Below, in pieces: positions 1,217 to 60,721 of a stretch of DNA of 64,000 bases. Positions within the stretch are counted from its first letter, which is position 1, and every line of letters begins with the position of its first letter. The stretch spans positions 1-64,000 of the forward strand of contig CAMTPC010000001.1 in NCBI GenBank assembly GCA_947074295.1, read 5' to 3'. A program made the translations under genes and the position numbers. The DNA is from an uncultured Bacteroides sp. (GTDB lineage Bacteria; Bacteroidota; Bacteroidia; Bacteroidales; Bacteroidaceae). The notes under the pieces are model-generated. The model saw only the letters and a program-made list of their open reading frames with translations. It did not search any database and was not told the DNA's origin.

Positions 1217-1290
1217 CAAAAAAAAAGGAGTCACGCCTGACTCCAACCTTTGTTAACCTTAAATCTAATACTATGAAAAACACAATGCAA
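1217..1290 (-). ncRNA. Candidate small RNA or attenuated leader ending in a strong hairpin-T tract
   Basis: Minus strand: TTTG-N19-TATATTTG promoter (1288-1318) followed within ~60 nt by GGAGTCA-GGCG-TGACTCC hairpin (1227-1244) and a run of 9 T. Alternative reading: attenuator of the lipocalin gene. Confidence 0.45.
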
Positions 1291-18018: not shown

Positions 18019-18918
18019 ATGAAAAAACTTAGAGCAGCCATCGTTGGTTATGGCAATATCGGACAATACGTATTGGAAGCTTTGCAAGCGGCTCCCGATT
18101 TTGAAGTTGCAGGTGTGGTGCGCCGTGCAGGTGCCGAAAACAAACCCACCGAACTGGCCGAATATGATGTGGTGAAAAGCATCACTGAGCTGAAAGATGT
18201 AGATGTAGCTATCCTGTGCACACCTACACGCAGCGTTGAAGCCTATGCCAAAGAAATACTTGCATTGGGCATCAACACTGTAGATAGCTTCGATATTCAT
18301 ACCGGCATTGTGCCATTGCGCAAGGAATTGGGTGAATGTGCCAAGGCACACAACGCTGTAGCAGTGATTGCAGCAGGTTGGGATCCAGGTACAGACTCTG
18401 TGGTGCGTACCATGCTCGAAGCTATCGCGCCAAAAGGCATCACTTATACCAACTTTGGCCCAGGTATGAGTATGGGTCACACTGTAGCAGTGAAAGCGAT
18501 CCCAGGTGTGAAAGCTGCTCTCTCGATGACAATACCAACAGGAACCAGCATACACCGACGCATGGTTTACATCGAGGTGAAAGATGGTTACAACTTTGAC
18601 GAAGTGGCAAAAGCTATCAAGGCGGATGCTTATTTCGTAAATGACGAAACGCATGTAAAAGAGGTTCCTAGCGTAGATGCGCTTCTTGACATGGGCCATG
18701 GCGTGAACCTTACACGTAAAGGCGTATCGGGCAAGACACAAAATCAGCTTTTCGAATTTAATATGCGTATAAACAATCCTGCCCTTACTGCTCAAGTTTT
18801 GGTGTGTGTGGCTCGCGCTTCATTCCGTCAACAACCCGGTTGCTACACGATGGTAGAAATTCCAGTAATCGATTTGCTTCCAGGCGAACGCGAAGAATGG
18901 ATCGCACATTTGGTGTAA
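18019..18918 (+). CDS. ddh: meso-Diaminopimelate dehydrogenase
   Basis: MKKLRAAIVGYGNIGQYVLEALQAAPDFEVAGVVRR, AGWDPGTDSVVRTMLEAIAPKGITYTNFGPGMSMGHTVAVKAIPGVKAALSMTIP. Confidence 0.96.
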   Translation: MKKLRAAIVGYGNIGQYVLEALQAAPDFEVAGVVRRAGAENKPTELAEYDVVKSITELKDVDVAILCTPTRSVEAYAKEILALGINTVDSFDIHTGIVPLRKELGECAKAHNAVAVIAAGWDPGTDSVVRTMLEAIAPKGITYTNFGPGMSMGHTVAVKAIPGVKAALSMTIPTGTSIHRRMVYIEVKDGYNFDEVAKAIKADAYFVNDETHVKEVPSVDALLDMGHGVNLTRKGVSGKTQNQLFEFNMRINNPALTAQVLVCVARASFRQQPGCYTMVEIPVIDLLPGEREEWIAHLV

Positions 18919-18954
18919 ATAATTATATTTAAATAGATCACCTGATTTCATATC

Positions 18955-18996
18955 CCATTCCTATAAGATTAAACACTTATGGGAATGGTTTTTTTT
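18955..18996 (+). terminator. Rho-independent terminator of ddh
   Basis: CCATTCCTATAAG...CTTATGGGAATGG followed by a poly-T run. Confidence 0.85.
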
Positions 18997-19084
18997 TACT
19001 TTGCGATGTGTTTATATAAAAACACCCACATCTCACCATACTGCTGATAATCACATATTTACAAATCACTAAAAAATGAATCGG

Positions 19085-19172
19085 TGAACAAGGCTGATGG
19101 GATGACTGAACAAGGTTATCTAGCAATCTGAACAGCCTCAACTGGCAGGCTGCTAAGTGCTAACTAATAAAA
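19085..19172. repeat. Degenerate 22-nt-period intergenic repeat, locus A
   Basis: Units begin at exact 22-nt intervals: 19085 TGAACAAGGCTGATGGGATGAC; 19107 TGAACAAGGTTATCTAGCAATC; 19129 TGAACAGCCTCAACTGGCAGGC; 19151 TGCTAAGTGCTAACTAATAAAA (weak). Confidence 0.6.
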
Positions 19173-19354: not shown

Positions 19355-21466
19355 ATGAAGAAAGTTACTTTTATCATGAGCAGCATCTTAGTGATGTCGT
19401 GCGCTGGAAAAGCGCCCAAAGTCAATTATCCTGAAACAGCTAAGGATGATGTAGTAGACGTTTATTTTGGCACAGAAGTGGCCGACCCTTACCGCTGGTT
19501 GGAAAACGACACTACTGCAGCTACAGCTACATGGGTAGCAGCACAAAACGCTGTGACCAATCAATATCTGGAGCAAATCCCTTTCCGCCAAGCTCTACTT
19601 GATCGTCTGACTTCGCTTTCAGATTACGAAAAAATCAGTACTCCATCCAAGAGAAATGGCAAATACTATTTCTATAAAAATGATGGATTGCAAAACCAAA
19701 GTGTACTGTATGTACAAGATAGCTTAGATAGCGAACCACGTGTATTTATCGATCCTAACAAGTTTTCTGAAGATGGTACGGTGGCTTTGGGACGCACTGC
19801 TTTTTCGCACGATGGCAAATATATAGCCTATGCAGTGTCAAAAAGCGGATCGGACTGGTTGGATATCTACGTGATGGATGTTGAAACTGGCCAGTTGTTG
19901 GAAGACCAAATCAATTGGGCAAAAGTGACCGGCATAGCATGGCAGAATGATGGCTTCTATTACAGTGCCTATGACAGACCTGTGGAAGGAAAAGAATATT
20001 CGCATGTGAATGAGAATCATAAAGTGTTCTATCACAAATTGGGTACACCACAGTCTGCCGATAAAGTGGTTTACACTAATCCTAAAGAGCCATTGCGCTT
20101 CTACACTACATCGACTAGCGATGATGACCGCTTCTTGTTCATGTATGAATCAGGCGCTTCGCGTGGTAATAACCTTTATATCACAGATGCTCAAAACAAG
20201 AAGGGCATGCAACAGCTAACTACTGACAATGAGTTTCAATATAGCCCTATCGAAGTGATTGGTGATAGCATCTTGATCTTTACCAACTACAATGCACCCA
20301 AAAACCGCATCATGGTAGCAGATGCCAAGAATCCGACCATCAATAACTGGACTGAACTTATTCCGGAGTCTGAGTCAGTACTATCGGGTGCACAGGTAAT
20401 CGGTGGCAAACTGTTCTTGACTTATGACCAAGATGCATCAAATCATGCCTATGTGTATGATCTTAACGGCACTCAAATCCAGGAAGTACAACTCCCATCT
20501 CTGGGCTCGGTAGGATTCAGTGGAAACAAGGATGACAAAGAGTGTTTCTTTGGCTTCACTTCATTCACTATTCCAGGTGCTACTTATAAATATGATGTGG
20601 ACAACAATACTTGGGAACTGTTCCGTGCTCCACAAGTGAAGTATAATCCAGATGAATTTGAGACTAAGCAAGTATTTTTCGCCAGCAAAGACGGTGAAAA
20701 AATCCCTATGTTCCTTACCTATAAGAAAGGCTTGCAACTTAATGGTAAAAACCCAGTCTTTCTATATGGTTATGGTGGTTTCGGTATCAGCCTCAACCCA
20801 TCATTTAACATGATGCGCATACCTTTCTTAGAAAATGGAGGTATCTATGCCCAAGTGAATCTACGCGGGGGCAACGAATATGGTGAAGAATGGCACGTAG
20901 CTGGAACGAAGATGAACAAGCAAAACGTTTTCAATGATTTCATCGGAGCTGCTGAATATTTGATCGACAACAAATATACTAATCCCGAAAAAATAGCAAT
21001 CGTAGGTGGTTCTAATGGTGGTCTATTGGTGGGTGCTTGTATGACACAACGTCCCGACCTATTCAAAGTGGCTATTCCACAAGTGGGTGTAATGGATATG
21101 CTTCGCTATCACAAATTTACTATCGGATGGAACTGGGCTAGCGACTATGGTACTAGCGAAGAGAGTCCAGAAATGTTTGAATACTTGTTAGGCTACTCGC
21201 CCATCCATAACATGAAGGAAGGAACAGCTTATCCAGCAACATTGGTTACTACTGCCGACCACGACGATCGTGTGGTACCAGCTCACTCGTTTAAATTTGC
21301 AGCAGCACTGCAAGAAGCCAATGATGGAACTAACCCAACTTTGATCCGTATCGACAGCAAAGCAGGACATGGTGCCGGCAAACCCATCCAGAAAGTACTG
21401 GAAGAGCAGGCTGATATTTATAGCTTCATCCTCTATAACATGAACGAAAAACCATCGTTTAAATAA
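19355..21466 (+). CDS. Prolyl oligopeptidase family serine peptidase (S9A), predicted lipoprotein
   Basis: PYRWLEN, IAIVGGSNGGLLVGACMTQRPDLF (GGSNGG nucleophile), DHDDRVVPAHSFKFAAALQ; lipobox LVMSC. Confidence 0.95.
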   Translation: MKKVTFIMSSILVMSCAGKAPKVNYPETAKDDVVDVYFGTEVADPYRWLENDTTAATATWVAAQNAVTNQYLEQIPFRQALLDRLTSLSDYEKISTPSKRNGKYYFYKNDGLQNQSVLYVQDSLDSEPRVFIDPNKFSEDGTVALGRTAFSHDGKYIAYAVSKSGSDWLDIYVMDVETGQLLEDQINWAKVTGIAWQNDGFYYSAYDRPVEGKEYSHVNENHKVFYHKLGTPQSADKVVYTNPKEPLRFYTTSTSDDDRFLFMYESGASRGNNLYITDAQNKKGMQQLTTDNEFQYSPIEVIGDSILIFTNYNAPKNRIMVADAKNPTINNWTELIPESESVLSGAQVIGGKLFLTYDQDASNHAYVYDLNGTQIQEVQLPSLGSVGFSGNKDDKECFFGFTSFTIPGATYKYDVDNNTWELFRAPQVKYNPDEFETKQVFFASKDGEKIPMFLTYKKGLQLNGKNPVFLYGYGGFGISLNPSFNMMRIPFLENGGIYAQVNLRGGNEYGEEWHVAGTKMNKQNVFNDFIGAAEYLIDNKYTNPEKIAIVGGSNGGLLVGACMTQRPDLFKVAIPQVGVMDMLRYHKFTIGWNWASDYGTSEESPEMFEYLLGYSPIHNMKEGTAYPATLVTTADHDDRVVPAHSFKFAAALQEANDGTNPTLIRIDSKAGHGAGKPIQKVLEEQADIYSFILYNMNEKPSFK

Positions 21467-36730: not shown

Positions 36731-36840
36731 TAAGCATGGACAATCTCTTTCCTGATCAAGGCTAGTCAGTGTGGTAGATAGCCGTCGCCAGTTTGGTAAA
36801 GACGGCTAGCCATGATATGGAGTGAGAGGCATATATAACT
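36731..36840. repeat. Degenerate 22-nt-period intergenic repeat, locus B
   Basis: 36731 TAAGCATGGACAATCTCTTTCC; 36753 TGATCAAGGCTAGTCAGTGTGG; 36775 TAGATAGCCGTCGCCAGTTTGG; 36797 TAAAGACGGCTAGCCATGATAT; exact 22-nt spacing but degenerate units. Confidence 0.45.
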
Positions 36841-60635: not shown

Positions 60636-60721
60636 TGAGCTATTCATAGGCCTGGTGAACAGCCTTAATCAGCACGGTGAGTAGCCTGTATTAGCTTAGT
60701 GAGTAAGGGTGGGCAGTAAAG
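60636..60721. repeat. Degenerate 22-nt-period intergenic repeat, locus C
   Basis: 60656 TGAACAGCCTTAATCAGCACGG; 60678 TGAGTAGCCTGTATTAGCTTAG; 60700 TGAGTAAGGGTGGGCAGTAAAG; exact 22-nt spacing; weaker unit at 60636. Confidence 0.6.

Follow-up and report, generated by a model that had tools for sequence, protein, structure and literature searches.

The intergenic region studied here lies within a window of 64,000 nucleotides, the whole stretch of DNA that was analysed (contig CAMTPC010000001.1, positions 1 to 64,000), from an uncultured Bacteroides genome of 3.73 Mb in 231 contigs that is 88% complete, with the nearest records found using its ddh protein being uncultured Bacteroides MAGs. To the left is ddh (18019-18918, + strand), encoding meso-diaminopimelate dehydrogenase (Pfam DAPDH_C, 5.2e-20), which is followed by its own terminator-like hairpin and T run at 18954-18997 (+), and to the right is a gene encoding a prolyl oligopeptidase of family S9 (19355-21466, +; Pfam Peptidase_S9_N, 1.1e-117). 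Separate from the hairpin and downstream of it is element A (19085-19166), which consists of four 16-bp imperfect dyads with the consensus TGANYAVGGCTRNTCA, separated by three 6-bp spacers (GCNNGC-like) to give an exact pitch of 22 bp. The units are A1 at 19085-19100 (+, TGAACAAGGCTGATGG), A2 at 19107-19122 (+, TGAACAAGGTTATCTA), A3 at 19129-19144 (-, TGAACAGCCTCAACTG), the centre of which is in the opposite orientation, and A4 at 19151-19166 (+, TGCTAAGTGCTAACTA), which is the weakest. The unit scores are 9.2, 11.6, 8.0 and 4.0 respectively, against about -17 at 19063 and 19173.

Element A is not the only such array within the window. Element B (36753-36812) has units at 36753, 36775 and 36797 (TGATCAAGGCTAGTCA, TAGATAGCCGTCGCCA, TAAAGACGGCTAGCCA) and a profile score of 43.7, whilst element C (60656-60715) has units at 60656, 60678 and 60700 (TGAACAGCCTTAATCA, TGAGTAGCCTGTATTA, TGAGTAAGGGTGGGCA) and a profile score of 42.6. 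A sequence-only model (R1) matches the three elements at 19105-19171, 36748-36817 and 60653-60720, the last with E=6.6e-11. Across the window the period-22 self-match score is highest at A (37 of 66), followed by C (36, at 60.64 kb) and B (35, at 36.71 kb). When each intergenic region was shuffled with its dinucleotides preserved these scores were reached in 1, 2 and 1 of 2000 shuffles for A, B and C at period 22, and in 12, 26 and 4 of 2000 for any period from 15 to 40. Tandem Repeats Finder at a score of 30 misses all three. The original prediction, that TGAACA recurs at 19085, 19107 and 19129 with a weaker TGCTAA at 19151, in a segment that is GC-richer than its surroundings and resembles two other loci, is confirmed, with the family having a mean GC content of 0.51 against 0.33 in the flanks. 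One correction is that TGAACA is only half of the unit, which is a dyad whose centre can face either way, so that the lattice reads the same on both strands.

The enrichment over shuffled intergenic sequence that had been set in advance as a test was found genome-wide. In 864 kb of sequence from the same genome, containing 77 kb of intergenic DNA, period 22 is the only enriched period among those from 15 to 49, with 14 hits against 0-7 at a threshold of 34 and 7 against 0-2 at a threshold of 37. A simple two-unit pattern gave 15 matches in the genome against 0 for the reversed control, although a strict two-unit pattern found only 2 places in this genome and none in 40 relatives, because the vocabulary is degenerate and lineage-specific. 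An iterated profile found 73 matches scoring 18 or more, representing both strands of about 37 loci, against 0 in shuffled and 0 in reversed sequence. The model built from 39 elements finds 154 matches over both strands, counted as roughly 100 loci, which is a lower bound as only 150 of 548 candidates were scored. By the 99th-percentile unit score 22 elements of this genome have three units and 16, including element A, have four, the fourth unit often being degenerate. Within the family there is a TGCATA...TATGCA subfamily (stretches L121 at 7220, L125 at 12834 and L106 at 3103) that matches one of the two vocabularies of the relative G042.

Of 36 loci analysed one is at a contig edge, and the other 35 all lie between genes, in every gene orientation: 19 tandem, 9 divergent and 7 convergent, against 116, 63 and 25 for all intergenic regions of at least 120 bp. 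The flanking genes show no common class, with 147 Pfam families in 71 genes and none in more than 3. It is apparent that the elements are overdispersed, as along 23 contigs 42 elements leave 20 gaps of 12.4-36 kb, with a spacing of about 20 kb, whereas random placement gives on average 13.3 gaps below 12.4 kb and never zero in 20,000 trials. In the nearest relative (G041, with 98% ddh protein identity) the smallest of 29 gaps is 9.3 kb, again found in 0 of 20,000 placements, with the sizes of a few contigs there being estimates. As contig ends hide very large gaps, the robust statement is the lack of close neighbours rather than a strict period, and exceptions exist, with 57 kb of G041 contig C2 having no element. 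That this stretch is a mobile island was not confirmed, it consists mainly of long co-directional gene runs.

The arrangement is crisper in G041, where the same de novo scan gives 14 period-22 hits against 0-2 for other periods from 17 to 29. Its elements use three main half-words (TGAGTA, TGGCAA and TGACCA) and GC/CC-NN-GC/GG spacers between GTTTGG and CCAAAC ends. Exactly four units are found in 32 of 36 elements, and 98 neighbouring unit pairs are exactly 22 bp apart, two are 44 bp apart and none lie at any other distance, although the flanks differ by indels. Units of one element are no more alike than units of different elements in 5 of 6 pairings, the exception being a weak signal between units 2 and 4, so neither slippage nor recent copying explains them. 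The units behave as independent draws from a small vocabulary, which also argues against RNA pairing. Neighbouring half-sites avoid being the same word, thus perfect palindromes are avoided. There is no Watson-Crick covariation beyond the frame, and swapping units between elements leaves the RNA folding energy unchanged (-40.2 against -40.3). One contig of G041 (C55) ends, right after an element, in what looks like an Illumina adapter (GATCGGAAGAGCACACGTCTGAACTCCAGTCACA), an assembly artefact.

Whilst the letters of the elements diverge, their positions last. A first search in 400 kb of G041 had almost no overlap with the stretches from the window's own genome, so element-centred stretches were compared. 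At all six spots where the orthologous region could be examined (ddh, and the paired stretches L207/L129, L211/L107, L212/L121, L215/L004 from one flank only, and L220/L100) both species have an element, although letters and flanks have diverged. Close relatives show shifted vocabularies, being TAGATAGGCCTATCTA-like in G045 and comprising two families, TGCATAAGGCTATGCA and TGAGAAGCGCTTGCCA, in G042, and the model from the window's genome finds nothing in most of 81 genomes of the genus.

Four-unit arrays of 21-23 bp pitch are found in other Bacteroidaceae, but with unrelated vocabularies. In 80 Bacteroidaceae ddh loci the intergenic arrays with period 22 number 39 at a threshold of 36, with periods 23 (20) and 21 (10) next, most other periods giving 0-3, and the multiples 40, 44 and 46 raised. 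Of the listed arrays 28 have four units against five with more, although the detector favours arrays of at least four, thus this shows a ceiling rather than a floor. In many other Bacteroides the region directly 3' of ddh also holds 22-bp-pitch inverted repeats of other sequence (L021, L024, L025, L031, L033, L049 and L062), and a further Bacteroidaceae lineage seems to share a 23-bp-pitch vocabulary (GAAGCACT...AGGGT) in intergenic arrays of four to five units (L048 at 2600, L057 at 2621 and L060 at 10833). B. fragilis has 11 period-22 arrays in 600 kb against 0-1 for other periods, and two of its vocabularies are dispersed genome-wide: GAAGTTAACTTC (80 matches against 11 in the reversed control, about 21 loci) and GGCTACACCC (35 against 5, about 15 loci). 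In a second B. fragilis genome 14 of 20 loci of the first family are matched at orthologous sites, the rest being undetermined. Together the two families leave no gap below 31 kb (4 of 20,000 random placements), although this test is post hoc and arrays of different vocabularies there can lie 1.5 kb apart. The GAAGTTAACTTC family is the only strong array type over 270 kb of B. fragilis G053 (positions 1,303,664-1,568,473) while other vocabularies occur in the preceding 235 kb, hinting at regional vocabularies. In 150 kb of E. coli there is no period-22 array.

The rigid two-turn pitch, degenerate dyads, ceiling near four, independent units and lack of a pairing signal point to a protein that would read double-stranded DNA as a multimer. 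What the analysis establishes is the geometry, typically three to four 16-bp imperfect dyads on an exact 22-bp pitch, that is two helical turns and so on one face of the helix, about 88-94 bp in all, together with the intergenic placement without regard to gene orientation or class, the orthologous positions between species and a spacing of at least about 9-12 kb in two genomes. That a protein binds at all is inferred from sequence, as is the suggestion that four dimers bind the four dyads cooperatively and wrap the DNA as an Lrp/AsnC octamer, a ring of four dimers, would, four dimers on 88 bp being the geometry of such an octamer. Less certain still is the inference that the job is architectural, with anchors or topological barriers about every 20 kb rather than regulation of one regulon, which is suggested by the context-neutral, overdispersed placement, and that the different vocabularies in different species or families reflect changed recognition by the same kind of protein. 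As a whole this explanation is held about as likely as not; a multimeric protein site of some kind is probable, an architectural role is a tentative suggestion, and an Lrp/AsnC-type protein is possible but rather unlikely.

Lrp dimers bind 13-17-bp imperfect inverted repeats with centres two or three helical turns apart, with DNA wrapping (PMC2995911), and BarR octamers are predicted to use 4-5 regularly spaced sites two turns apart with the DNA wrapped around the octamer (PMC10201364). The 16-bp dyads and the 22-bp pitch fit these descriptions, and 3-5 sites are found in operators such as the Sa-BarR/St-BarR and Ss-LrpB regions. However, known operators sit in control regions of regulated genes, whereas here roughly 100 putative sites per genome are evenly spaced in all gene contexts. 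The Lrp/AsnC family (PF01037) is present in 1-3 copies in all 12 genomes tested, but these genes are ubiquitous and are also present in the genome G074, whose 200-kb sample has no 22-bp arrays. No array lies beside the Lrp/AsnC genes of the lineage, so autoregulation is not seen and the identity of the protein is only a lead.

The original interpretation, which offered a dispersed repeat family, a regulator or nucleoid-protein array, or a small-RNA feature, is partly supported: the dispersed family is shown, a regulator or nucleoid-protein array is the best remaining mechanism, and the small-RNA feature is not supported. It did not include the dyad, the fixed unit number, the even spacing or the generality across Bacteroidaceae. 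An RNA element, with tandem hairpins acting as terminators, mRNA stabilisers or small RNAs, might be suspected as transcripts would fold strongly (mean -40 kcal/mol per 82 nt in G041) and some arrays just after ddh in other species (L021, L024 and L031) look like tandem terminators. It is very unlikely given the absence of pairing-specific covariation, the equal folding of unit-swapped controls, the avoidance of perfect neighbouring palindromes, the common divergent contexts, the terminator-like hairpin that ddh already has, and the lack of any Rfam or ARAGORN match at the arrays that would indicate a CRISPR, tRNA or sRNA gene. The Rfam search did find the small RNA BTncRNA_FopS (RF04319) elsewhere in the window at 1217-1283 (-), another copy of which lies about 90 bp from an array in G041 (L206, 3149-3219). 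A neutral minisatellite made by replication slippage is less likely again, as in this lineage units inside one element are not more similar than those between elements, copy number is fixed near four, indels are absent and one vocabulary is shared genome-wide, although arrays in other species (L084, L086 and L044) have nearly identical units, as do some in B. fragilis, which looks like tandem duplication.

An ordinary transcription regulator with a large regulon is also unlikely. Degenerate dyads at helical phasing are typical of operators and the multiple vocabularies could be those of different regulators, yet the elements lie in convergent and tandem regions as often as expected by chance, sit close to 3' ends and flank no common gene class, and regular spacing is unexpected for a regulon. 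A non-autonomous mobile element similar to REP/BIME or MITE elements, with copies spread by a transposase and tolerated between genes, and with even spacing reflecting target immunity or selection, is the strongest of the alternatives but remains improbable. The elements are dispersed, intergenic and about 90 bp long, have terminal GTTTGG...CCAAAC-like inverted ends in relatives, and occur as several families per genome as REPs do. However, no Y1 transposase (PF01797) was found in the window's own genome, at its 88% completeness, by a search that detects it in 5 control genomes, the elements show no copy similarity to one another and no bias to 3' ends, with 9 of 35 in divergent regions, and positions are shared between diverged species rather than polymorphic at those spots that could be compared.

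No description of these arrays was found in the literature, within the open-access PMC papers searched. The organisation of Bacteroidota chromosomes appears to be poorly understood, and a site family with fixed geometry, roughly 100 copies per genome, a spacing of about 20 kb and orthologous positions gives a direct handle on it, as the sites can be used as bait to find the inferred protein. It also poses an evolutionary puzzle, because the same four-unit, 22-bp geometry recurs across the family with unrelated sequences, so recognition appears to have been rewritten genome-wide several times while positions persist. It is possible, although doubtful on present evidence, that Bacteroidaceae chromosomes carry a previously undescribed class of evenly spaced architectural elements, each a nucleosome-like wrapping site for four protein dimers, with the geometry conserved across the family whilst the vocabulary is rewritten from lineage to lineage, implying co-evolution of an unidentified chromosome-organising protein with its sites.

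Other dispersed elements share some of these features. Chromosome-organising sites such as matS/MatP and parS/ParB are also dispersed palindromic sites with a non-random distribution, but are single sites restricted to the Ter or ori region, whereas the multi-dyad arrays are found throughout the contigs sampled. REP/BIME elements with RAYT transposases are dispersed extragenic palindromic units, many per genome and with clade-specific sequences, but the arrays lack the GTAG/CGTC tag that defines REPs (PMC3733652), with no such constant tag in the position frequencies, and have a constant 22-bp pitch and low copy-to-copy identity. With no tag, and no Y1 transposase found in the 88% complete genome, they are not RAYT-type REPs. 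The BrickBuilt MITE of Porphyromonas gingivalis (a 23-nt minisatellite, PMC4596501) is likewise from the Bacteroidales and intergenic, with degenerate 22/23-nt units without spacer DNA and loci conserved among strains, but has 1-22.8 copies at 19 loci, a leader and tail and IS5-type terminal repeats. The elements described here are not BrickBuilt and have 3-4 dyad units in rigid register at roughly 100 loci, with no leader or tail and only short GTTTGG/CCAAAC-like ends in the flanks. More like BrickBuilt than the four-unit elements is a long array in G074 (contig C1, about 1.1134 Mb, stretch L181) of at least nine near-identical 23-bp units.
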